From Reichenbachiella versicolor (GTDB lineage: Bacteria; Bacteroidota; Bacteroidia; Cytophagales; Cyclobacteriaceae), in assembly GCF_003171675.1 (NCBI RefSeq), contig NZ_QFZQ01000005.1, forward strand, positions 372,001-436,000: a stretch of DNA of 64,000 nt, read 5' to 3'. Below, in pieces: positions 49,773-63,280 of the stretch. A model generated the notes under the pieces. That model was not told the origin of the DNA. It did not search any database and saw only the letters and a program-made list of their open reading frames with translations. The translations under genes were made by a program, and so were the position numbers. The stretch's first letter is position 1, and every line of letters begins with the position of its first letter.

Positions 49773-51635
49773 TTACTCTACTACTAGTCTCATTGTTTTA
49801 TTTGATACTTTAACTAGATAGAGGCCAGGAGATAAATTGTCCAATGACAGATTAGGGAAAGAACCATTTATAGTCTGAGTCGAAACTTTTATCCCTTCCA
49901 TAGAGAATATCGAGACCTCATACCTCCCCTGTCCTAATCCTTGAATACCAACAAAATCCGTTGCAGGGTTGGGTACCAAAAGGAGTTGATCATTCATCGA
50001 TGATTCGCTTCCCATACTTATTGCCCTTGAATTAATTGCTCCAACTTTTTTCAATGCAAACCTATCTAGATTCCATGTCCAGTTGGTTCCTCCTGCCGAA
50101 AGCCTAACCACATGTTTTCCCTTTGTAAAGTTTGCCTTGGCAATAGCTTTCAAAGGTTGATAGTTTTCCCAAGAACCCGAGTTAGGAACTATGGTAGAGT
50201 TCCAGACATTCGACCCCATCCCAAACTTGATTGTTGAACCTGTCATAGGAGACGAAACGTAGTATGTAATTTCATAAGCCCCATCTTCAGGAATAGTAAT
50301 TTGATAGTCTGCATAGTCTCCTTTATTTACCCAATTGATTCCAGTTCCAGTATTTATGTTTACTCCAAATGGTACATAACCATCATCAAAAGTACCACCA
50401 TGAGAAGATAAATCCTCTGCTTCTATTGTTATGGAACTGGCCCCACCTCCGCCACCAGAATTCGAGCCTACAGGCTTATATACTCTTACCCAGTCAACTT
50501 TCATCTGATTTTTAGACGCCGAGTTCAGATCAGATTGCGATGGAGTAGCATTAGTCAACCAACTTTGAGACTCCATATTTATTATAATATCTAACTCTTT
50601 TGTGAAACCTTTAGCTTCGACTGTAATTCCATTACCGTCTTCATCAGTATTATCTCCTCCTTGAAACCACCCTGTATCAATCACACTATAACCGTTTGAA
50701 GCATTACTAGCAGCCTTTAGGGTATTAAAGCTGTAATTATTACTAGTACTATGGGTGGTAACCAGTGAATAGCCATCCCCTCCATTTGTAGGAAAAAAGT
50801 ATCCATTGGCATTAGCTGTTACTGAATTATAATAAGTGTATTGCCAAGTCCCATTTATTTTGGTCGCCATGGCGTTATAATACATCACTCTTACCAACTC
50901 TCCATTAATATAATATTCCCAATGCTTTGGACCTATCCAATTCACTCCCATCCTCATATACCGGCGATTACCTCCATTCCAACAATATGGTCCCCAACCA
51001 CCAGCAGCGGTCACTTGAGGGATTGGATACCAACTATTCCTATCTCTTGGCTGATAATCAGTAAAAGGGTTTCTTACAAAAGAATGATGACTAATGTGAG
51101 TGTAATTTTTAAACCAATCTACGCCTCCATAGTTTTCAATAATATCAATCTCCTCAGTATCATCAGGACTCAAAAGCCAAAAACAAGAAGCCAACGAAAT
51201 ATTGGCTACACTTAGTGATGATTCTACATATACTGGATAACTAACTCTAGCATTTGAAGTAACACAGCCAGAAGCAACACCATGTGTACCTCCTTTAGTA
51301 GTTTCAGGTGTATATCCTACGGTAATCACGAGGTTATCACCATCTACTGAAACATTAGAATTATCCCAATAAGTATAACCAGGCCCATCCCATGGGTTGT
51401 GATAGAAATTATACCACTGGTTATTTGGACCAAAATTAGATCTACTTGCAAACTCACCAGCACCAAAGGACGCAGTGTAACTAAAATCGTCTGACAAGGA
51501 GTTTTCTAGACTCCACACATTACCGTTGCCAGGGTTCGCTGGTATCGGTATATTATCCCATTCATACTGAGCAAAAGCGTTTTGATAATTGAACAATAGC
51601 ATACAAGCTACCGTAAATAGGTAAACATTTTTCAT
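49773..51635 (-). CDS. GH16 beta-agarase/porphyranase-like enzyme with CBM6 and T9SS sorting domain
   Basis: This 620-residue secreted enzyme opens with a signal peptide ending NAFAQ. The GH16 domain (about residues 25-385) has the catalytic signature EEIDIIENYGG (ExDxxE), and WDNIPIPANPG at the start is agarase-like. After a Gly/Ser linker (NSGGGGGASS) a CBM6-like module spans about 395-535 (IEAEDLSSHGG to WNLDRFALKKV). The end is a type A T9SS sorting domain (LLVPNPATDFVGIQG to NKTMRLVVE). It probably degrades agar or related red-algal galactans. It lies between the two his blocks on the opposite strand. Confidence 0.9.
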   Translation of the reverse strand: MKNVYLFTVACMLLFNYQNAFAQYEWDNIPIPANPGNGNVWSLENSLSDDFSYTASFGAGEFASRSNFGPNNQWYNFYHNPWDGPGYTYWDNSNVSVDGDNLVITVGYTPETTKGGTHGVASGCVTSNARVSYPVYVESSLSVANISLASCFWLLSPDDTEEIDIIENYGGVDWFKNYTHISHHSFVRNPFTDYQPRDRNSWYPIPQVTAAGGWGPYCWNGGNRRYMRMGVNWIGPKHWEYYINGELVRVMYYNAMATKINGTWQYTYYNSVTANANGYFFPTNGGDGYSLVTTHSTSNNYSFNTLKAASNASNGYSVIDTGWFQGGDNTDEDGNGITVEAKGFTKELDIIINMESQSWLTNATPSQSDLNSASKNQMKVDWVRVYKPVGSNSGGGGGASSITIEAEDLSSHGGTFDDGYVPFGVNINTGTGINWVNKGDYADYQITIPEDGAYEITYYVSSPMTGSTIKFGMGSNVWNSTIVPNSGSWENYQPLKAIAKANFTKGKHVVRLSAGGTNWTWNLDRFALKKVGAINSRAISMGSESSMNDQLLLVPNPATDFVGIQGLGQGRYEVSIFSMEGIKVSTQTINGSFPNLSLDNLSPGLYLVKVSNKTMRLVVE

Positions 51636-51943: not shown

Positions 51944-53398
51944 TTATTCAATACCAAGGTTTGCTATACCAGCTGCCCAGTATAAACCTGCCACGTCTTT
52001 TTGATATTGAGATCTAAGTTTTAAAAGCTTGGTCTGAGATTTTAGCATTTTATCAAATTGGACATTGATTTTAAATAAATCACTTTCTCCATTTTCTAGA
52101 TTCAAGCGTTCGGCTTCTAAAATCAATTCATAGCTTCTTACCATATCTTTTTGCTGTTCCAACATATTCCCAGTGACCAATACTGATCTATATCTTGCAG
52201 ATATATCATTTACAATTTCTCTTTCTCTGAAACTTCTTTCGAATTGATTCTGATCAATCTTAATGTTTAGTTGTTTCAATTTAGCCCTCTCTTTTCGGAG
52301 TAATAAAGGAAATGAAAAAGTAGCACCGAACTTATAATTATCTGTAAAATCTATCCCTACATTATCAGATTGAGGTGTCAAAGGCTGATCAAGAATAGTA
52401 TAATCAAGATCCAACTGTGGCTTTAAGTTCTCTTTTGCTAATTTTCTATCAATCGCCAAAGACTCATTTTTTAAGTCAAGCTTAACCAATTCAGGATGAT
52501 TATCCCTAGCCATCTCTACTAACTGACCTAAAATTTCACCGTCCATAGTCTCAGACTGTGACTCTTCTGGTTTTACATCATCTGGAATTTCTAACGGAAA
52601 ACCTCCCTCATTCCATAGATGATTTGAAAGTCTTAAACCAGCATCAATTCGCTCGATATTAGCTTGTTGAAAATCAAGACTTCTTGTCTGCAAAGTAATT
52701 TTTGCTTGCATAGTATCAATAGCTGCAAGCTCTCCTAATTCAAATGCCATTAAAGAACGGTCAAATATATCTTGTGCCAATGTGATACTTTGCTCAAGCA
52801 AATCGTAATTCTTGTACGCAAAATACCATTGCCAATAATCCTTGGCCGCAGTAAGCAAGATCTTATTTATTTCCTTAATTTGCTCAGCATCAGCCATGTT
52901 TTGAAGCACTTTAGCCTTCTTTACCAGAGCTCTTCTTTCATCAATAAAAAGACCTTTTCCTATCGGTAAAGAGATTCCCGCGTATAGTTGCTGATTATTG
53001 GTATCATCCGAGATATAATCTGGACCGTCTCCATCGGCAAACACTCCTTGGTTTTGCTTAAACCCCACCTTTGGATCTATAGGAAACCAAGTAGGGACTT
53101 TTAATCCAGCTCCAATCTTGTTGTAGTATTCTTTACTCTTATACTCTTTATAGTCCCACGACCCTTCTAATTTAGGATCAAAACTACCTCTTGCAAGTCT
53201 AAGCTCCTGAGCTGCACTTTCACTGAGCAATGCTGCCTGTTTGACTATCGGATGATTGTCAATAACATAGGCGTAAAACACATCAAATGTCAATACACCC
53301 ACTGAATCGGATAGACTACCTGAGTCCTTCTCAACAGGTTGCCCCTTGACACTTAAGCAAGCTACGAAAAGTAATGTGGTCAATAAATAACTTCTCAT
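51944..53398 (-). CDS. TolC family outer membrane efflux protein
   Basis: This 484-residue protein has a signal peptide (residues 1-19) and the long alpha-helical repeats of TolC channels. The two outer membrane efflux repeats are visible, for example VKQAALLSESAAQELRLARG and MARDNHPELVKLDLKNESL. It probably forms the outer membrane exit of the HlyD/ABC exporter encoded directly upstream (zero-base spacing, start right after the HlyD stop). Confidence 0.9.
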   Translation of the reverse strand: MRSYLLTTLLFVACLSVKGQPVEKDSGSLSDSVGVLTFDVFYAYVIDNHPIVKQAALLSESAAQELRLARGSFDPKLEGSWDYKEYKSKEYYNKIGAGLKVPTWFPIDPKVGFKQNQGVFADGDGPDYISDDTNNQQLYAGISLPIGKGLFIDERRALVKKAKVLQNMADAEQIKEINKILLTAAKDYWQWYFAYKNYDLLEQSITLAQDIFDRSLMAFELGELAAIDTMQAKITLQTRSLDFQQANIERIDAGLRLSNHLWNEGGFPLEIPDDVKPEESQSETMDGEILGQLVEMARDNHPELVKLDLKNESLAIDRKLAKENLKPQLDLDYTILDQPLTPQSDNVGIDFTDNYKFGATFSFPLLLRKERAKLKQLNIKIDQNQFERSFREREIVNDISARYRSVLVTGNMLEQQKDMVRSYELILEAERLNLENGESDLFKINVQFDKMLKSQTKLLKLRSQYQKDVAGLYWAAGIANLGIE

Positions 53399-54763
53399 CT
53401 ACTTAACCTTCAGTTTAGGTGCTACTTGGCTCTTAGATTTCTTTTCTTTTTCTTCATCTGGTTCCATGTACAAGCTAGGAGGGAATCCATTGAGCTGTCT
53501 CCAAAGTTCAAACCATAAAGGAACACTATCCAGCATAACCCAACCATTGGTGCCAGAGCCAAATCTCAATAAAGCTGGCCAAGGATCATCATCTGGATCC
53601 GGAGTAACAAGAATTCTAAACTTACCTTGCTTACTCTGTACAAAATCTATGACTTGAACAACACCTCCAAATGTACCAACTGACACACTAGGCCATCCAC
53701 TAAACTGCAATGCGGGCCATCCATCAAATTCAATTCTAACTTTTCTTCCAATGGAGATCAAAGGAACATCCATAGCTTGTACATACATCTCTACTGCTAT
53801 ATCTGGATCAGCAGGCATGATGGTAGCGACAGCCTCTCCTTCTTTGATGGTTTCCCCAATACCTGCTCGCATAGCCTTAACCAGATACCCTGATTGTGGA
53901 GCCAACACTTGGTATTGTTCGTTTCTAATCTGCATGTTAGAGTACTCATTTCTTAACTTAGAAAGAGAAGCTTGGCTATCGAACATATCAGCTAAAGTGG
54001 CATTCAGATTTGACTCTGCTTTATTGATTTTGTCTTGATACTCTGCTTGAACACCTGCTAGATTCACTTCTGCATTGATTACCTCCGCCTTCGTTTGAAG
54101 ATATTTGTTTTCAGAAGAAACGATTTTCATTCTTGCCTCCTGATATTTTGATTCTTTATCCTGAAACTTAGTTAGTGTGGTGTTTCCTGCTTCGTACAGC
54201 TTTTTATTTCGCTCATACTGATTTTTGAAGTTTTGAAACCTTACTTCTTGAGCAAGAAAATCAACACTATCACTAGTCAACTTTAGTCTAGTTTGCTTCA
54301 GCTTGTTTTGTGCTTGTTTATACTTGACGTTTTTTGCTTGATTCAGAGCCCTAATTTGACTTCTCAAAGCTTCAGATTTTGAAGTTTTAGAAGAGATACT
54401 TTGCTCTTTTGCTTCTAATTGCTCCCGCATTCTTAAAAGTAAGTCAGGGTCAAAATATTTGTCCTTTATTTCACTTAAAGTCAAAATAGTGTCTCCTTCG
54501 TTCACAAATTGTCCTTCTCTAATATTCCAATTTGCTATTCTACCAGCAATGGCCGATTCTACCGATTGTGGCCTATTCGCTGGAGTAAATGCAGTAATTT
54601 TTCCAGTACCACGAATGTTTTGTTGCCAAGGTAGGAAGAGTAGAATAATAAAAACGGCTGACAGTCCCATCAACCATCTGGCAAGCACTCTACCTGTCCC
54701 TGGAGTCTTGAGTGTTCTTAGTGTATAGATCTCAGTCTCTGTATATTGGGCTTTATTCTCCAT
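53399..54763 (-). CDS. HlyD family periplasmic adaptor
   Basis: This 454-residue adaptor has a short cytoplasmic N terminus, one membrane helix (about residues 28-47) and a lipoyl half (AGRIANWNIREGQFVNEGDT). A long coiled coil spans about residues 110-270. The second lipoyl half and beta-barrel follow (YQVLAPQSGYLVKAMRAG, VEMYVQAMDVPLI). It bridges inner and outer membrane parts of a type I-like exporter. The gene lies between the ABC and TolC genes, three bases and no bases away respectively. Confidence 0.92.
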   Translation of the reverse strand: MENKAQYTETEIYTLRTLKTPGTGRVLARWLMGLSAVFIILLFLPWQQNIRGTGKITAFTPANRPQSVESAIAGRIANWNIREGQFVNEGDTILTLSEIKDKYFDPDLLLRMREQLEAKEQSISSKTSKSEALRSQIRALNQAKNVKYKQAQNKLKQTRLKLTSDSVDFLAQEVRFQNFKNQYERNKKLYEAGNTTLTKFQDKESKYQEARMKIVSSENKYLQTKAEVINAEVNLAGVQAEYQDKINKAESNLNATLADMFDSQASLSKLRNEYSNMQIRNEQYQVLAPQSGYLVKAMRAGIGETIKEGEAVATIMPADPDIAVEMYVQAMDVPLISIGRKVRIEFDGWPALQFSGWPSVSVGTFGGVVQVIDFVQSKQGKFRILVTPDPDDDPWPALLRFGSGTNGWVMLDSVPLWFELWRQLNGFPPSLYMEPDEEKEKKSKSQVAPKLKVK

Positions 54764-54766
54764 GTC

Positions 54767-56923
54767 CTAGTTAATTAAAGCATCTAGCTCACCTTGTTCC
54801 AGAAGTTCTTGATAAGTACCTTCTGTTTTGATAGTTCCTTTTTCCATTATTATCACTCTATCACACTTATCCATTATCAAACGGTCGTTCGATACTACAA
54901 CAAGTGTCCAAGGGTTATCCGGGTCGGCTAGCATATTCATGAGTTCTCTTCGTTCAGATCTCAAGAAATCATTGAAAAAATCATTCAAAATCAAAAGCTC
55001 TGGCCTTTTGGACAGACACCTTGCTAAAATGATTTTATTTATTAAATCCCTAGACAAACCTTTTCCACTACTCATCATAGTAGTATTCAATCCGTCAGGC
55101 ATAGCGTTAATCGCATCAAGAATACCTACTTTCTCTAATGCCCACAGCGCATCTTCAGGAATTGCATTTGGTTTAGACAATATGATATTCTCTAAAATTG
55201 TCCCTTCAAAAATATCATCCTGAGAAACATTTTTACCAATCAAGTCCCTTAGACTCATTAAATCTAAATCTCTCAGAGAATAGTTGTTAATGGTCAGCAA
55301 ACCTTCAAAATGATTATTAAATCCAGAAATTGTACTAGTCAATACTCTTCTACCAGATCCGCCTCTTCCTGCTATACAAACTCGTTCTCTCTTTTCGATT
55401 TTGAGATCTATATTATTCAGTGCGTAGTTAGACTTACCTGGAAACTTATATTTCAACCCTTTCATATGAACGGCAAACCCTTTTCCTATATGCGAAGGTG
55501 GAATATCCAATCCTCCGCTTTTCTCTAGTGGTAAATCAGTAACTAGAGATATCTTATCCACTGCGGTCAACATGTCATAGACAACATCCATATACATGAT
55601 AATCTTCTCAACAGAACTTAAGGTCAAAATGATAATCACTTCTGCTGCAACAAACTGCCCCAATGTAATCTCTCTTTGTACTACCAACATCGTACCTATG
55701 ATCAGCAACCCTCCTGTAACTAAGGTCTTGAATAATAGAACAAATGAATATTGACTCAGCAGTATTCGGAAGTGTATTTTCCTATTTTTCAAATAGTTAT
55801 TCACCATAAAATCCGTCTTTCTCATTGGAAGTGGTGTGTTACCAGATAGCTTAAAAGAATTAATTGTTCGAGCTAATTCTTCCAACCAATAGACCACTCT
55901 GTACTTGAACTTAGACTCTTTAATTGAAGAACTGAGCCCTTTTGGACCGGTGGCATAAAATATAGAAGTAAGTAGACCTACTAAGAACAAACTAAAGAAG
56001 ACAAAAAACGGGTGATAGAAAGAAAGCAGCATGAGACCAAATAGAATTTGAATCACACCAGCTGATAAGTCAATCAAAAGTTTAGGAAGACCCTTTTGAA
56101 TGGTCAAAACATCAAAAAATCTATTCATCAACTCTGGAGCATAGTACTTTAAGAGTGCTTCAGATTTTATCCTAGGAATTCTAAATGCAAATTCAAATGC
56201 AGCTTTCGTAAATACTCGCCGTTGTAAATATTCCACTAAGGTTATCTGTGTGATCTGCAATCCACCAGCAGCTAAAACTCCTACTATCACCAGGCCTATC
56301 AAAACATAGACTGAGCTAAAAAACACACCTCCAGATATAAGACCAACAGTGGCTTGAATACCAACTGGTAGTGACAAACTTATAAGCCCGACTAAAACAG
56401 CATAAAAGTAAATGTATATGATATCCTTTTTCTCTTCTGAAAGTAGTCTTATCAGTCGCTGAAAGGGAGTAAGAGGAGTCTTCTCTTCATCATTACTCAC
56501 TAAACTTTTATATGCAAAGACTCCAAGAAAAATCACTATACCATCTTCTACGTGAATCTTGGGAAGATTTTCTCTACTGATTTCTACCACCTCAGAAGAG
56601 TTTTCGCGAATTCTAAGCATCATATTTTTCCTTTTGACATTATAAAATATCAAAGGAGTCAATTGATCCTCATTTTCTTCGAAAGCAACTATTGGAATGT
56701 GTGATTCGCATAAAAATGATACGAATTCGTCATATCCCAATGTATTTTCTAGATAAACGATGCCTTGCCCATTAGCAGCTTCTATCAAGTCTCTTTTAAA
56801 TTCAGCTCTATCCACTACTTCATAGTGCCTAGGTGTGGGCTGAATATTAGTAACTGTAAAGTCTTCATGCTGAAGAATAGCAGCAGACTCTTTTATTATT
56901 TGTACTATATGATCACTTCTCAT
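54767..56923 (-). CDS. ABC exporter-like protein with degenerate nucleotide-binding domain
   Basis: This 718-residue protein has a soluble N-terminal domain (about 1-155) without a visible C39 peptidase triad. A six-helix exporter membrane domain spans about 165-450. The C-terminal ABC ATPase domain spans about 480-718. Nearly every ATPase signature is altered. Walker A reads GRGGSGRRVL (519-528), with Lys to Arg and Ser/Thr to Arg. The signature is LSRDL instead of LSGGQ. Walker B reads LLILND, where Asp-Glu has become Asn-Asp. The switch His is Asn in VVSNDRL. Only the Q-loop (VSQDD) looks normal. It lies in a TetR-ABC-HlyD-TolC operon. It may be a non-hydrolysing pseudo-transporter or need an unlinked partner. 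Confidence 0.9.
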   Translation of the reverse strand: MRSDHIVQIIKESAAILQHEDFTVTNIQPTPRHYEVVDRAEFKRDLIEAANGQGIVYLENTLGYDEFVSFLCESHIPIVAFEENEDQLTPLIFYNVKRKNMMLRIRENSSEVVEISRENLPKIHVEDGIVIFLGVFAYKSLVSNDEEKTPLTPFQRLIRLLSEEKKDIIYIYFYAVLVGLISLSLPVGIQATVGLISGGVFFSSVYVLIGLVIVGVLAAGGLQITQITLVEYLQRRVFTKAAFEFAFRIPRIKSEALLKYYAPELMNRFFDVLTIQKGLPKLLIDLSAGVIQILFGLMLLSFYHPFFVFFSLFLVGLLTSIFYATGPKGLSSSIKESKFKYRVVYWLEELARTINSFKLSGNTPLPMRKTDFMVNNYLKNRKIHFRILLSQYSFVLLFKTLVTGGLLIIGTMLVVQREITLGQFVAAEVIIILTLSSVEKIIMYMDVVYDMLTAVDKISLVTDLPLEKSGGLDIPPSHIGKGFAVHMKGLKYKFPGKSNYALNNIDLKIEKRERVCIAGRGGSGRRVLTSTISGFNNHFEGLLTINNYSLRDLDLMSLRDLIGKNVSQDDIFEGTILENIILSKPNAIPEDALWALEKVGILDAINAMPDGLNTTMMSSGKGLSRDLINKIILARCLSKRPELLILNDFFNDFLRSERRELMNMLADPDNPWTLVVVSNDRLIMDKCDRVIIMEKGTIKTEGTYQELLEQGELDALIN

Positions 56924-56930
56924 AAATGCT

Positions 56931-57611
56931 TTAGCTGGTTTTTATGCAATTAAACACTACGTTCTGTAGAAAATCTTCATTCTTTTGATAGATATTCATT
57001 TCTTCTTGGTTTAGATCAGTAAGCGTAGGTATATGTTCCGCGTAGAACACTTGTTGGTGTGCTGCCTGCATCACTGTACTAATAAGTGAATGTGGATATT
57101 TAAATGAAGCATCAATCTCTGTCACTATAGAAGCAACTTTTTCGCAAAGAGACTTAAAACCTCTGAATAAACCATCTCTATTATCCTCATCTACTGTCTT
57201 AGTCAAAAAAGTTTTGTTGGATTCGGAAATTACTATTCTATGAAGCGCATCTTCCATGACCTGAGGAAATAGTGGATCTGGCTCTTTTTTTTCCGTGATT
57301 ATTTTGAGAGCTACTTTCAACCTATCTACTGGATTTTCAATGTTGTGAGTACCAAAATCGATTTTATATTCAAGCCAATTCCAGTACCAAGCTATTACGT
57401 ATACTAACAGTCGATGCTTATTTTCGAAATATCGATAAATAGAAGCTTCAGTTGAATCAATTTTAGCTGCTAGTTTTTTGAAAGTAAAACCTTCAAAACC
57501 CAATTCATCAATCATGGTTACACTCTCTTTAATTATCTTTTTGCCAAGTTCTGTTTCCTGTGGATCCTTCACAAATAGATTTTTATTCAAGAGTAGTTGA
57601 ATAGCAGGCAT
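56931..57611 (-). CDS. TetR/AcrR family transcriptional regulator
   Basis: This 226-residue protein has a TetR helix-turn-helix (about residues 35-70): FTFKKLAAKIDSTEASIYRYFENKHRLL. The ligand domain is rich in aromatic residues (VIAWYWNWLEYKIDF). It is seven bases upstream of the ABC-exporter gene and heads the operon. It probably represses the exporter and itself; dyads upstream (57643-57679) are candidate operators. Confidence 0.92.
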   Translation of the reverse strand: MPAIQLLLNKNLFVKDPQETELGKKIIKESVTMIDELGFEGFTFKKLAAKIDSTEASIYRYFENKHRLLVYVIAWYWNWLEYKIDFGTHNIENPVDRLKVALKIITEKKEPDPLFPQVMEDALHRIVISESNKTFLTKTVDEDNRDGLFRGFKSLCEKVASIVTEIDASFKYPHSLISTVMQAAHQQVFYAEHIPTLTDLNQEEMNIYQKNEDFLQNVVFNCIKTS

Positions 57612-57882: not shown

Positions 57883-59016
57883 ATGAAAAAAGTTTTATTC
57901 ATAGATCGGGACGGTACTTTGGTTCTCGAACCACCAGTCGATTACCAACTAGATTCACTTGAAAAACTGGAGTTCTATCCTGGAGCCTTTCAGTGGATGG
58001 CAAAAATTTCCAAACTTGGATATGAATTAGTAATGGTCACAAACCAAGACGGACTTGGCACTGACTCATTTCCAGAGGACACTTTCTGGCCTGCACACAA
58101 CAAATGTATGAAGGCCTTTGAGAACGAGGGCGTAATATTTGATGCCGTAAAAATCGATAGAAGTTTCCCCGCAGATAATGCTCCAACTCGTAAACCTAGG
58201 ACAGGTATGCTAACTAAGTATTTAGAAGGCGATTATGATTTAGCCAATTCTTTCGTAATCGGGGATAGAATTACCGATGTAGAATTAGCAAAGAATCTCG
58301 GAGCAAAAGCTATTTTTATACAGAATGAAGAAGGTTTAGGCGCAGAAGAACTTGCTAATAAAATAGAAGACCTACAGCCAACTATTGCACTGACCACTAC
58401 AGACTGGGAAGAGATCTATAATCTTGTAAGTAAAGGAAGCCGCACTTCTTCTGTAAAGAGAACAACGAAAGAAACTGATATTGATATACAGGTAGAACTT
58501 GACGGAACTGGTCAAGCTGACGTAAATACTGGATTGAAATTTTTCGATCACATGCTGGATCAAATTGCTAAGCATGGTCTCTTGGATTTAAAAATCCATG
58601 TAAAAGGAGATCTTGAAGTGGACGAGCATCATACAATCGAAGATACAGGTATTGCTCTGGGGGAAGCTATTAATGAAGCACTTGGTAATAAAAAAGGCAT
58701 CGAAAGATATGGGTTCTGCCTTCCAATGGATGACTGTCTATGCCAAGTAGCATTGGATTTTGGTGGTCGAAATTGGATTGAATGGGACGCAGAATTTAAA
58801 AGAGAAATGGTGGGTAAGATGCCTACTGAAATGTTCTTTCATTTCTTTAAATCATTTTCTGATGCAGCAAAATGTAACCTAAACATCAAAGCTGAAGGTG
58901 ACAATGAGCATCATAAGATTGAAGGTATTTTCAAAGCTTTTGCTAAAGCTATCAAAATGGCTGTAAAAAGAGATAAGGACAAAATGATATTACCCTCTAC
59001 GAAGGGGATGCTATAA
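57883..59016 (+). CDS. hisB: Bifunctional histidinol-phosphatase / imidazoleglycerol-phosphate dehydratase
   Basis: This 377-residue fusion performs two steps of histidine synthesis. The N-terminal HAD phosphatase (about 1-165) has [10 protein letters not shown] with the nucleophile Asp and [17 protein letters not shown]. The C-terminal dehydratase (about 185-377) has [27 protein letters not shown] and [17 protein letters not shown], the His/Glu metal sites. It opens the second his block behind its own promoter-like box. Confidence 0.97.
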
Positions 59017-59023
59017 AATATTA

Positions 59024-59094
59024 GTCAATGCAGGTAAGAAATGAAGCTAAACCATCTGTCAACTAAACAGACCTCTTCTTTATCGCAATGACAC
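59024..59094. repeat. Imperfect palindrome in the hisB-hisH spacer (REP-like)
   Basis: The arms 59024-59059 and 59067-59094 share, read inward, GTCAATGC versus GTCATTGC, then TAAGAAA/TAAAGAA, GAAG and TCTGT. The ends resemble GTCATTGCGA-type interspersed palindromes of other genomes and the adk-obg element in this window. Confidence 0.5.
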
Positions 59095-59107
59095 TGACAC
59101 AAATACA

Positions 59108-59695
59108 ATGAGCAAAGTAGTAATAATCGATTACGGGGCTGGAAACGTAAAGTCTGTAAAGTTCGCATGCGAACGACTGGGGCTCAATGCAGAGCTTAGC
59201 AACGATCCTGAAGTTATCAAATCTGCTGACAAACTAATATTCCCTGGACAAGGTGAAGCTAGTTCCTCTATGCGAGACTTGAAAGCCAACAACCTTATAG
59301 ATGTAATTAAAGAGGCCAAACAGCCTTTTTTAGGCATCTGCCTAGGTATGCAAATGATGTGTAATTATATGCAGGAAGGAAATACAGATGGATTGGGAAT
59401 CTTCCCTCTATCAGTAGATCTTTTTGAAGGTAATGAAGTCAAAGTTCCGCATATGGGGTGGAATCAAATCGAAGGGCTTAAAACTCCTCTCATGGAAGGA
59501 TTAAAAGAGAACGAGCACGTCTACTTCGTACACTCCTACTTCGTTCCTGCTTCCGAATGGACAATAGCTAAAGCTAACTATCCAGAAGCATTCAGTGCTG
59601 CTTTGCATAAAGATAACTTCTACGGGTGTCAATTTCACCCTGAAAAAAGTGGTTTAGCAGGTCAGAAAATTTTAGAAAACTTCATAAAAATGTAA
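59108..59695 (+). CDS. hisH: Imidazole glycerol phosphate synthase, glutaminase subunit
   Basis: This 195-residue class I glutamine amidotransferase feeds ammonia to HisF. The catalytic triad is Cys in LGICLGMQMM (about residue 78) and His-Glu in QFHPEKSG near the C terminus. VVIDYGAGNVKSV opens the fold. It is two bases upstream of hisA. Confidence 0.97.
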   Translation: MSKVVIIDYGAGNVKSVKFACERLGLNAELSNDPEVIKSADKLIFPGQGEASSSMRDLKANNLIDVIKEAKQPFLGICLGMQMMCNYMQEGNTDGLGIFPLSVDLFEGNEVKVPHMGWNQIEGLKTPLMEGLKENEHVYFVHSYFVPASEWTIAKANYPEAFSAALHKDNFYGCQFHPEKSGLAGQKILENFIKM

Positions 59696-59697
59696 TC

Positions 59698-60417
59698 ATG
59701 CGAATTATTCCAGCGATTGATTTGATAGATGGTAAATGTGTTCGCTTAACTAAAGGTGACTACGACCAAAAGAAAATATACAACGAAAACCCATTAGAGG
59801 TAGCTAAGGAATTTGAAGATGCTGGTATCAAATATCTTCATCTTGTAGATCTTGATGGTTCAAAAGCTCGTGAGATCAAAAACGCTGCAGTATTAGAAAC
59901 TATAGCTTCTAATACTGGACTTACTATTGACTTTGGCGGTGGTATTCGTTCTGATAAGGACATTGATATAGCTTTCAATGCTGGTGCTTCTCAAGTGAAC
60001 TTAGGAAGTGTTGCACTGGAAAATAAAGAGCTATTTGAAGAATGGCTTAAGAGGTTTGGTGCTGAAAAAATTATTCTTAGTGCAGATTCAACAAATCGGA
60101 AAATTGCTATCAATGGGTGGCAAGAAGAATCCAAAGTAGACTTGTTCGACCTTGTCAAAGAATATGAATCTATGGGTAATAAATATATGGTATGCACGGA
60201 TATCAGCAAAGACGGCATGCTTCAAGGAATAGCTGTAGATTTGTATCGTGATTTGATCGGAGAATTCCCAAGTCAAAAAATCATAGCTAGTGGTGGAGTA
60301 AAAGACATCAAAGATGTAGAGGATGCTGCTGAGCTAAGTATGGACGGTATTATTATAGGTAAGGCCATCTATGAAAATAAAATTTCATTGAAACAATTAG
60401 AAGCTTATGCTGACTAA
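59698..60417 (+). CDS. hisA: ProFAR isomerase
   Basis: HisA, a 239-residue (beta/alpha)8 barrel, isomerises ProFAR to PRFAR. It opens with [20 protein letters not shown], with the catalytic Asp8. The two phosphate-binding motifs are [10 protein letters not shown] and [10 protein letters not shown]. The catalytic Asp at about 130 is in SADSTN. It overlaps hisF by 11 bases. Confidence 0.97.
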
Positions 60418-61162
60418 GCGAATAGTTCCTTGTTTGGATATCAAAGACGGTCGCACCGTGAAAGGAGTCAACTTCGTCAACTTACGTGATGCGGGTGACC
60501 CCGTAGAATTAGCTGCTGCTTACTCTGAACAAGGAGCTGATGAATTAGTTTTTCTTGATATCACTGCGACTGGTGATGGTCGTAAAACTACTGCTGACCT
60601 AGTAGAAAGAGTTGCCGAAAAGGTTAATATACCATTTACCGTAGGAGGAGGAATCAAATCGGTAGAAGATGTGTACACACTTCTCCATAGAGGCGCTGAC
60701 AAGATATCAATCAACTCTTGGGCAGTAAAAGAACCTAAGGTATTGGAGGAGTTAGCTACTCAATTTGGAAGTCAGTGTGTGGTACTTGCTGTAGATGCCA
60801 AACAAATTGATGGCAAATGGAAAGTTCATTTAGTTGGAGGAAAAGTCCCCACAGAGATCGACTTATTTGACTGGGTAAAGGAAGCCGAAAATAAAGGCGC
60901 TGGAGAGATCCTTTTCACATCAATGGATCACGATGGTTCTAAGAATGGCTTTGCAAATGAGGCTCTGGCAAAAATTTCTGATATGGTCAATATTCCTGTG
61001 ATCGCGTCAGGAGGAGCTGGTAGTATGCAAGACTTTGCAGATACATTCAAAGAAGGAAAGGCTGATGCAGCATTGGCGGCCAGCGTTTTTCACTTTAAAG
61101 AAATTGAAATACCAAAACTCAAGCAGGAACTGAAAGATCAGGGAATTGCAATAAGAATTTAA
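60407..61162 (+). CDS. hisF: Imidazole glycerol phosphate synthase, cyclase subunit
   Basis: HisF is a 251-residue (beta/alpha)8 barrel that forms imidazole glycerol phosphate and AICAR with ammonia from HisH. It starts [20 protein letters not shown], with the catalytic Asp11. [10 protein letters not shown] and [11 protein letters not shown] are the phosphate sites. VVLAVDAK carries the second catalytic Asp. Confidence 0.97.
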
Positions 61163-61171
61163 ATTAGTCAA

Positions 61172-61216
61172 TAGATAATAGTCATAGCCAATCTCCTTGG
61201 TTGATACTATAATCTA
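61172..61216. repeat. Imperfect hairpin in the hisF-hisIE spacer
   Basis: TAGATAATAGT (61172-61182) mirrors ACTATAATCTA (61206-61216) with one mismatch. CCAA/TTGG continue the stem inside. There is no T-run, so it is not a standard terminator. Confidence 0.5.
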
Positions 61217-61236
61217 TAGACCATCAATATCAAATT

Positions 61237-61830
61237 ATGGAAATTGATTGGAAAAAGGTAGATGGACTAGTTCCAGCGGTAGTACAAGATGCCACTACTA
61301 AAAATGTATTAATGCTTGGCTACATGAATGAAGAAGCATTGGCCACTACCAAAGAAAAAGGGAAAGTGACATTCTTTAGTAGAACCAAAGAAAGACTTTG
61401 GACTAAGGGAGAAGAAAGTGGAAACTTCCTAGAACTTGTAAATATCAAACTAGACTGTGATAACGACACACTGCTGATTCAGGCTAATCCAGTCGGCCCT
61501 ACCTGCCATAAAGGTGACGATACTTGCTGGGCAGAAGATAATAATCCAAATTTTGGATTTTTAAACACATTAGAATCAGTCATCAAAGACCGCTATGACA
61601 ATCAAGAGCAGAAGTCATACACTAGTTCTCTTTTTAAAAAGGGAATTAATAAAGTGGCTCAAAAAGTAGGTGAAGAAGCGGTAGAAGTTGTAATCGAAGC
61701 GAAAGATGATAATGAGGAGCTTTTCCTCAATGAATCTGCAGACTTACTTTATCATTATTTAATTCTGCTTAGAGCTAAAGGTTATGAACTGAACGATGTC
61801 GTCAAAGTCCTAGAAGAAAGGCATAAGTAA
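61237..61830 (+). CDS. hisIE: Bifunctional phosphoribosyl-AMP cyclohydrolase / phosphoribosyl-ATP diphosphatase
   Basis: This 197-residue fusion performs steps two and three of histidine synthesis. The cyclohydrolase part (about 1-110) has MLGYMNEEAL, SRTKERLWTKGEESGN, and zinc-binding DCDNDTLL and TCHKGDDTCW. The diphosphatase part (about 110-197) has LFKKGINKVAQKVGEEAVEV and ADLLYHYLILL. It ends the second his block, followed by a strong terminator. Confidence 0.96.
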   Translation: MEIDWKKVDGLVPAVVQDATTKNVLMLGYMNEEALATTKEKGKVTFFSRTKERLWTKGEESGNFLELVNIKLDCDNDTLLIQANPVGPTCHKGDDTCWAEDNNPNFGFLNTLESVIKDRYDNQEQKSYTSSLFKKGINKVAQKVGEEAVEVVIEAKDDNEELFLNESADLLYHYLILLRAKGYELNDVVKVLEERHK

Positions 61831-61852: not shown

Positions 61853-61905
61853 AAACCAAAGAGCCCTTCCAGACTTGGTCAGAAAGGACTCTTTGGTTTT
61901 TTAGT
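61853..61905. terminator. Bidirectional terminator after hisIE
   Basis: AAACCAAAGAG (61853-61863) pairs with CTCTTTGGTTT (61889-61899); CCTT/AAGG extends the stem. A T-run follows on the plus strand, and the stop codon of the convergent M56-M23 gene overlaps the 3' side. Confidence 0.9.
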
Positions 61906-63280
61906 TTTTTGAATTATCTCTTTTCGGTTTCATATATTTAACTGGATTTACCTTTTCACCATTTACAATTACTTCATAGTGTAAATGTGGAGCAGTGGAC
62001 TTTCCAGTATTTCCAACAAAGCCGATAATATCACCTTTTTTTACTTTTTGGCCTGCTTGTACCTCAAAGCCATCCATGTGAGCATAGAATGTAGAGACAC
62101 CATTTCCATGGTTGATTTGCATATGCTTACCAAATTTATCAAAATCGGACTTTAGCAGAACAATAATTCCATCAGCTGTAGCGTAAATATTTGTGCCTTT
62201 AGGAGCAGCAAAGTCTACTCCAGAATGGAATTTTCTTACTTTGAATATCGGGTGAATCCTATATCCATACCCTGAAGAAAGACGAGTAAGATCTTCATCT
62301 TTAATAGGAGAAATACTTGGTACAGCATTGTCAGAAATAGCTAACAACTCTTCTACCGAGTCACTTTCTAAGACACTAAACTCTGGCAAATAGTCTTCAA
62401 CTTTTGAAATATGACTTTGCTTAAAAGCCATAGTTGACAACATCAATACCGGTATTAAAGAACTATATATACCCAACTTAAGTCTTTTACTCTTTTTCTT
62501 CGCCAGCATTTCAACCCTAATTTTCATAGTATTTGAACTACCGAAACTACTTGTCAAACTAAGACGCTCCTCAGGTATTACACTTTTAAGCATTAGTGAG
62601 AGATACTCAGATTTGGAAGTTGAATTGGCTATCACCTGCTCGTCTGCTTGAAACTCATGTACAGATCTTAGAAGCCTTCGAAAAAGAAAAACGAAAGGGT
62701 TGAACCAAGTGATAGCAATAAATAATTCTGTTGCCAATAAGTCCACTGAATGCTTTAATCTTATATGAGCCAGTTCGTGTTTCATCATTGGATGATCACT
62801 ATCGAGATGCTGATTTTCAGGAACGAAAATCCATTTAAAGCATGAAAAAACACTCCGTACATTTGATTTTACTATTGAATATCCTTGAAATGAAGAATTC
62901 ACAGAGCTACGCGTATATTGAAAGAGCTTACAAACGCTTACAATGAGTATTAATAGGTAAACCAACAAGCCTATTCCGTAAAAATATTGAAGATACGGCC
63001 AAAACGATATCGAAGCAGATTCAGTCGTTTCTTTGACTTCATTTATTACTGGAAAAAATTCATCCTCGATCCATTCCGTCGCTTCAATTGAATGAATGAT
63101 GGAAGAATGAAAGTCAATATTCAACACTGGTATTAAGAATGAAAGTGGAATTGAAAGCAATAAAATAATTCGATTCAGTCCATGAAAAGTCAGCTTTCTA
63201 AAGAACACTATGTATGTCAATGTGAACAGTGAAAATACCGCGCTCACTTTCAATAAATAGATGATTAGATTACTCATCAT
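61901..63280 (-). CDS. M56 (BlaR1-like) metallopeptidase fused to M23 peptidase domain
   Basis: This 459-residue membrane protein has four predicted membrane helices. Between the third and fourth lies an M56 zinc site (KHELAHIRLKHSVD, with the downstream Glu in HEFQADEQV). The C-terminal region (about residues 335-450) is an M23 LytM-type endopeptidase. It has HSGVDFAAPKGT, YAHMDGFEV and HLHYEVIVNG, with the zinc ligands His, Asp and His. The fusion suggests a sensor that processes its repressor and carries a periplasmic cell-wall domain. It overlaps the BlaI-type gene by 11 bases. Confidence 0.9.
   Translation of the reverse strand: MMSNLIIYLLKVSAVFSLFTLTYIVFFRKLTFHGLNRIILLLSIPLSFLIPVLNIDFHSSIIHSIEATEWIEDEFFPVINEVKETTESASISFWPYLQYFYGIGLLVYLLILIVSVCKLFQYTRSSVNSSFQGYSIVKSNVRSVFSCFKWIFVPENQHLDSDHPMMKHELAHIRLKHSVDLLATELFIAITWFNPFVFLFRRLLRSVHEFQADEQVIANSTSKSEYLSLMLKSVIPEERLSLTSSFGSSNTMKIRVEMLAKKKSKRLKLGIYSSLIPVLMLSTMAFKQSHISKVEDYLPEFSVLESDSVEELLAISDNAVPSISPIKDEDLTRLSSGYGYRIHPIFKVRKFHSGVDFAAPKGTNIYATADGIIVLLKSDFDKFGKHMQINHGNGVSTFYAHMDGFEVQAGQKVKKGDIIGFVGNTGKSTAPHLHYEVIVNGEKVNPVKYMKPKRDNSKN

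Follow-up and report, generated by a model that had tools for sequence, protein, structure and literature searches.

Tripartite export operons in Bacteroidota built around ABC-exporter-derived proteins with degenerate or absent nucleotide-binding domains

Introduction

The locus described here raises the question of how an exporter can be organized around an ABC protein whose nucleotide-binding domain (NBD) has lost the residues for ATP hydrolysis. It lies in a stretch of 64,000 nucleotides from Reichenbachiella versicolor (assembly GCF_003171675.1, contig NZ_QFZQ01000005.1, forward-strand positions 372,001 to 436,000), referred to below as the window. An earlier note, made from the sequence alone, had read the protein as a likely kept pseudo-ATPase that may run without hydrolysis of its own or with an unlinked partner. 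For the family to which the protein belongs, there is good support for a pseudo-ATPase. The new finding here is a graded series of relatives, which comprises catalytic proteins, a degenerate majority and one clade that has no NBD. Literature searches, which left most subscription journals outside their reach, found no paper describing this exporter family.

Results and Discussion

The operon and its neighborhood

The ABC-exporter-derived protein (P0001) is encoded on the minus strand (54767..56923) in an unbroken frame of 718 codons, and its AlphaFold2 model has a pLDDT of 86.4. The operon begins with a TetR-family regulator (56931..57611, minus strand; PF00440, 29.9 bits), and the ABC gene is followed by genes for a HlyD-type periplasmic adaptor (53399..54763, minus strand; PF13437, 44.3 bits) and a TolC-type outer-membrane channel (51944..53398, minus strand; PF02321, 141 bits). 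Gaps of 7 nt (TetR-ABC), 3 nt (ABC-HlyD) and 0 nt (HlyD-TolC) separate the four genes, and the intact frame and tight spacing are thus as first described. Elsewhere in the window, plus-strand frames resembling HisB, HisH, HisA, HisF and HisIE (57883-61830) presumably form a histidine biosynthesis run, divergent from the TetR gene. A 459-aa minus-strand frame (61901-63280) is taken to resemble a fusion of a BlaR1/M56-type membrane peptidase with an M23-type endopeptidase domain, which seems an unusual pairing, and a 620-aa secreted-looking protein (49773-51635, minus strand) presumably combines a glycoside hydrolase, a carbohydrate-binding module and a type IX secretion tail.

The operon is kept in the family. 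Within the sequence stretch around each of 140 loci (L031-L170), HlyD is encoded at 134, TolC at 129 and a TetR relative at 83. HlyD is missing from L120, where a contig end cuts the locus, and from L124, L126, L138, L145 and L147. These last five show neither HlyD nor TolC in the available stretch, and some of their contigs are short.

Domains and motif changes of the window protein

The protein consists of a soluble N-terminal domain, a six-helix transmembrane domain (TMD) and an NBD. The first PDB matches of the full model in Foldseek are PCAT1 and HlyB (8dck, TM 0.74/0.77), and the six-helix exporter TMD is present in the model (aa 150-475; 55499..56476, minus strand); it is the best-conserved region of the protein. 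The membrane domain had been called normal, which holds for its fold but not for its sequence score, as PF00664 reaches 20.8 bits against a cut-off of 28. No curated subfamily cut-off was reached among the best 25 of 110 NCBIfam matches, TIGR03375 scoring 154 bits against 693.

The N-terminal domain (aa 1-145; 56489..56923, minus strand; pLDDT 90.5) has a fold that may be C39-like. Its first Foldseek matches are the peptidase domains of ComA and PCAT1, which are weak (E 0.012 and 0.014, with none below 0.001). Among 43 long-form sequences, Cys occurs in at most 6 of 43 in any column and His in 18 of 43 in one column; there is therefore no conserved Cys-His pair, in agreement with the earlier reading that the domain lacks a clear peptidase triad.

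The NBD (aa 482-710; 54794..55480, minus strand), placed by Pfam match and motif alignment, still matches ABC_tran (PF00005) with 42.4 bits against a cut-off of 25. Every motif change first claimed for it is present, all on the minus strand. Walker A reads AGRGGSGRRV (55343..55372), with K525R and S/T526R; the signature reads GKGLSRDLI (55040..55066) and lacks GGQ; Walker B, LLILNDFFNDFL (54962..54997), has Asn-Asp instead of Asp-Glu (LLILNDFF); and the switch reads VSND (54878..54901), with Asn for His at aa 679. In four aligned ABC exporters from the same genome (L171, L172, L173 and L176), Walker A GK[ST] and the switch His are intact throughout; Asp-Glu is present in three of them, and L173 has Asp-Asp. 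Since these controls mostly keep their motifs, the loss in the window protein is more than chance.

Motif loss across the family

Relatives are common in the taxonomic family of the host, with a match of E 1e-50 or better in 125 of 148 genomes, its own included; the other 23 gave weaker matches only, presumably to ordinary ABC proteins. The family has two forms: the long one, about 725 aa, includes the N-terminal domain, and the short one, about 575 aa, lacks it. The best match in two genomes of the same genus (G068 and G124) is a short form with 48% identity. The window genome has a single family copy, the next match scoring 95.7 bits.

Motifs were surveyed in 155 distinct sequences (97 long and 58 short, the window protein included), which were picked by similarity to the window protein and are thus not a random sample. 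None has a canonical NBD, and the maximum is four of seven canonical positions. The Walker A Lys is present in 149, Walker B Asp-Glu in 2 and the switch His in 2. This count scores L089 as Lys-keeping despite its gapped P-loop (GxxxxGK itself occurs in 148 of 155) and excludes from Asp-Glu the ambiguous DDE of L148, which is included in the count from the 230-row alignment described below. A2 covers 73 and A3 42 of the 80 named loci. In the 97 long-form sequences, common states are Asn in place of the Walker B Asp (76), Asp for the catalytic Glu (89) and Asn where the switch His would be (73). One locus, L310, has its family gene split into two frames and its HlyD gene also in pieces, perhaps through an assembly error, and was omitted from the counts.

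The five changes are not all shared by homologs. Losses in Walker B, the signature and the switch are found throughout the family. The Walker A changes, Lys to Arg and Thr to Arg, are local, because the Lys is present in 149 of 155 sequences; it changes seven times on the tree, the window loss among them. A family of intact homologs with a lone degenerate copy in the window was not found among the 155 sequences.

Degeneration extends past Bacteroidota. A query with an NBD-less relative matched 19 plasmid records, 7 from Bacteroidota and 12 from Sphingomonadales. Four of the 12 Sphingomonadales proteins were aligned (L329, L331, L332 and L334). None of them retains Walker A, Walker B Asp-Glu or the switch His; the operon on these plasmids thus has an NBD without even a P-loop. 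Two of the four are annotated just as "ABC transporter transmembrane domain-containing protein", with HlyD and TolC as neighbors, and two as ATP-binding protein.

The motif survey bears on the possibility of a residual or binding-only ATP cycle, in which degenerate NBDs bind ATP and slow turnover suffices for gating or slow export. Among 176 degenerate members, the P-loop Lys is kept in 169, GxxxxGK[ST] in 136, and Asp or Glu at position 648 in 142. The acid at 648 counts against a reading without hydrolysis, because Glu-to-Asp sites can still hydrolyze slowly according to the available part of one source (PMC7756269). However, Walker A is gone from the window copy and the four Sphingomonadales relatives, the switch His is lost almost family-wide, and the NBD is absent altogether at 28 loci. 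A residual cycle is accordingly considered rather improbable.

Constraint on the TMD and the NBD

Estimates of dN/dS place the NBD under purifying selection. Median omega is 0.049 for the NBD and 0.022 for the TMD, the NBD being higher in 16 of 17 pairs; these come from the 17 of 47 pairs with usable (finite) dS and are rough, since dS is often saturated. In the clade without an NBD, omega ranges from 0.03 to 0.22 (6 of 10 pairs usable).

Pairwise identities show an NBD that is retained, yet less constrained than usual. Mean identity in the long form is 0.64 for the TMD and 0.46 for the NBD, with the TMD above the NBD in all 4656 pairs; the short form gives 0.56 and 0.36, again with the TMD above in all 1653 pairs. 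In contrast, 30 MsbA-like control proteins from the same taxonomic family have 0.61 for the TMD and 0.67 for the NBD, and the TMD is higher in just 80 of 435 pairs. Catalytic relatives are intermediate (TMD 0.51, NBD 0.45). The TMD is already the more alike in 138 of their 190 pairs, which argues that the loosening of the NBD predates the loss of its catalytic residues.

These results also bear on ordinary decay, by which the window copy and its relatives would be pseudogenes on their way out. The window motifs are indeed broken at five places; against this, frames are intact across genera, the NBD has an omega of about 0.05 and the operon is retained, which makes decay very hard to credit. 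Purifying selection on the NBD, combined with family-wide loss of hydrolysis residues, upholds for the family the view of a kept pseudo-ATPase.

From catalytic relatives to loss of the NBD

A query with the TMD only found matches in 98 of 395 genomes of the phylum, in 39 of 101 of one family and in at least 147 of 194 of the order of the window. They include 20 remote relatives with frames of 591-839 aa, adjoined by HlyD in all 20 and by TolC in 19. Walker A Lys, Asp-Glu and the switch His occur together in 18 of the 20, and 17 of those 18 lack the double Gly of the signature.

At the other end of the series are 28 loci whose frames, of 334-374 aa, end just past TM6 and are followed directly downstream by HlyD and then TolC in every case. 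This kind occurs in 11 of the 39 matched genomes of the one family. Like the short form, these proteins have no N-terminal domain. In two of them, L252 and L248, PF00664 is above its cut-off and is the sole Pfam match. In one genome, G739 (L307 and L321), a copy without an NBD coexists with at least one fused copy, among three matches.

The alignment of 250 rows was reduced to 230 by removing L310, whose frame is broken, L255, whose frame is split, L311 and L120, both truncated at a contig end, and 16 rows with identical ends. On a TMD tree of 106 of the 230 rows, made by a quick method under LG+G4, the 21 rows without an NBD fall into a single clade (SH-aLRT 99) within the degenerate members. 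A branch of support 100 sets off the 13 catalytic rows, and with them one degenerate and three partly degenerate ones. The direction of change is read as loss on the established view that ABC exporters hold an NBD by descent. Several independent losses of the NBD were considered and set aside, one change being enough on the trees; transfer between lineages may have played a part.

A possible partner ATPase in trans

An exporter of this kind might borrow a catalytic NBD in trans, or pair as a heterodimer with an active half-transporter from an unlinked ABC gene. Several ordinary ABC exporters are encoded in the genomes, and coupling helix 1, a loop of the TMD, is retained in the proteins that lack an NBD; both would fit such a partner. 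Six of the 28 NBD-less loci also have an ABC ATPase gene of another kind within about 16 kb downstream. L335 and L351 have 286-aa frames at 4.2 and 4.5 kb and L342 one of 303 aa at 8.8 kb. At L353, L358 and L361, which represent three of the nine NBD-less genomes with genus code g85, the gene encodes a canonical exporter of 613-641 aa and lies 5.1-5.8 kb away on the same strand.

However, 22 of the 28 loci have no NBD frame over about 16 kb downstream (7-13 kb in three; two of the 22 with only 7-8 kb), and 26 of the 28 have none within the first 5-6 kb or so of flanks. A whole-genome search of the 28 NBD-less genomes, with the NBD of L136, a close fused relative, as query, gave no orphan NBD of the family type. 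The best score was 105.7 bits, whereas the fused control G332 gave 375.4, and among the matches listed the frames were of at least 577 aa save two of 343 and 323 aa. At the 140 loci, another NBD-like frame occurs in the flanks of 13, at scattered positions. As to a linked catalytic subunit, matching to the window protein found a full exporter in the flanks of just L143 and L150. There, a canonical MsbA-like exporter lies upstream of the degenerate gene (3403-5337 in L143, 3-1733 in L150); as it is confined to these two sister loci, it was dismissed as the partner.

Neither the neighborhoods nor the 28 genomes searched thus yielded a consistent partner. Where the NBD is gone, so is the conservation of coupling helix 2, and the window genome has its single family copy. 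A catalytic NBD in trans is quite improbable on these grounds. The unlinked partner that the earlier note had allowed for finds no support, some relatives being wholly without an NBD.

Coupling loops and acids of TM6

Two intracellular loops of the TMD are named here, by alignment rather than from a contact map, as what we take to be coupling helices 1 and 2 (CH1 and CH2). CH1, in the first loop (aa 258-272; 56108..56152, minus strand), carries the motif PELxNRFFD; CH2 is in the second (aa 354-368; 55820..55864, minus strand). The three classes were compared at like TMD divergence, with pairs at 0.42-0.62. Identity in CH1 is 0.64 in degenerate, 0.70 in catalytic and 0.66 in NBD-less proteins, whereas in CH2 it is 0.44, 0.36 and 0.15, respectively. 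The loss of conservation in CH2 is taken as a sign of lost contact with an NBD, and by the same token the NBD of the degenerate class may still dock there.

Several features of the TMD are family-wide: NRFFD in CH1, K277, S337, K340, E428, E439, K440, D450 and K457. E428 and E439 of the window protein lie within the hydrophobic stretch of TM6, and together with D450 they share one face of TM6 and its extension (aa 421-450; 55574..55663, minus strand). Positions 428 and 439 each carry an acid in 229 of 230 rows, and in none of the four ordinary exporters of the same genome. The four Sphingomonadales relatives keep E428 and lack E439. Acids at 428, 439 and 450 are present in 17, 18 and 16 of 18 catalytic relatives; being in nearly all of these, the TM6 acids predate the decay of the NBD and were not invented to replace ATP. 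A scan of TMD columns found no new conserved acid in the NBD-less clade. Acids gained upon loss of the NBD were rejected on the same scan, whose only changes are a gain of Lys or Arg at 389 (28 of 28 NBD-less proteins against 3%) and the loss, in most, of Arg352.

The conserved charges also weigh on the idea of a passive conduit or scaffold, in which the TMD anchors and gates HlyD-TolC while the substrate enters from the periplasm or follows its own gradient. As a rule the gene is accompanied by HlyD and TolC (134 and 129 of 140 loci, and all 28 NBD-less ones), and both soluble domains are absent from some members, as a conduit would allow. Charged residues in TM6 and the first loop are strictly conserved. 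This suggests that the TMD does more than serve as an anchor, and a purely passive role is seen as unlikely.

A proposed mechanism and its meaning

The reading preferred here is a tripartite exporter whose export does not depend on its own ATP hydrolysis. It is judged probable from sequence comparisons, and is strongly suggested by the clade that lacks an NBD and keeps the TMD-HlyD-TolC arrangement. A TMD homodimer would join HlyD and TolC in an inner-to-outer-membrane exporter derived from one of C39/HlyB type. In most relatives, where the P-loop is kept, the NBD may survive as a cap that either binds ATP or is structural and that docks by way of coupling helix 2. In the window protein the cap is probably structural, since its P-loop is gone as well.

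The TMD may be driven by the proton gradient as in SbmA, a proposal that falls a little short of an even chance and draws on the analogy with that protein and on the TM6 acids, of which E428 and E439 would be the candidate proton carriers. Retention of CH1 in the NBD-less proteins and the absence of E439 from the four Sphingomonadales relatives speak against an SbmA-like drive. Further points against the preferred reading are the TMD-NBD imbalance already seen in the catalytic relatives, the presence of the TM6 acids in those same relatives, and the ABC ATPase genes downstream of six of the 28 NBD-less loci. As for the substrate, the presence of a TetR gene and a C39-like fold would suit small molecules or peptides.

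The family bears on how an ATP-driven pump can become a secondary transporter, for which the case that the literature searches turned up is SbmA, an importer (PMC13316013). The window family supplies many living intermediates for an exporter. It is tentatively suggested that the family shifted from ATP drive to proton drive and that all the stages are still living, namely catalytic, pseudo-ATPase, P-loop-less and NBD-less, the last of which would amount to type-I-like secretion that dispenses with an ATPase. If this is true, many Bacteroidota genes annotated "ABC transporter ATP-binding protein", together with some from Sphingomonadales, do not encode working ATPases.

Comparison with known systems

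The C39-domain exporters HlyB, PCAT1 and ComA, of type I secretion, resemble the window protein in the fold of the full model and in the HlyD and TolC partners; the N-terminal fold has C39 domains as its first, weak matches. The window family differs from type IV ABC exporters of this class in that it lacks catalytic NBD residues, scores far below curated cut-offs and has members that have no NBD. The NHLM bacteriocin exporters (TIGR03796 and TIGR03797) are the best curated matches of two scanned NBD-less members, but the scores are 60.6 and 50.4 against a cut-off of 853.

Another group with lost catalytic residues is that of the exporters with one degenerate site. In the heterodimers TmrAB, TM287/288 and MsRv1273c/72c and the one-chain CFTR, one site is active, as described in the available parts of two sources (PMC7756269; PMC12038006). 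Like the window family, they have lost the Walker B Glu and further catalytic residues in the degenerate site; however, a homodimer from the single window gene would have both sites degenerate.

SbmA is not known to work with HlyD or TolC. Its sequence family is not matched here, as L252 and L248 give PF00664 alone and the window protein gives PF00005 and PF00664. Like the NBD-less relatives, SbmA/BacA (SLiPT) is an ABC-type TMD that has lost its NBD; SbmA has conserved glutamates lining its path and is proton-driven via a glutamate ladder, as far as the available text describes it (PMC13316013). In that same text, YddA, an NBD-bearing relative of SbmA, carries part of the ladder, a parallel in which ladder residues predate NBD loss as the TM6 acids do here (PMC13316013). 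SbmA is there an importer with added TM0 helices and lost coupling helices (PMC13316013), whereas in the window family CH1 is kept in all three classes and conservation of CH2 is lost in the NBD-less relatives only. The window protein itself retains a degenerate NBD, which is absent just from the 28 relatives. The families differ further in that many intermediates with degenerate NBDs survive in that of the window.
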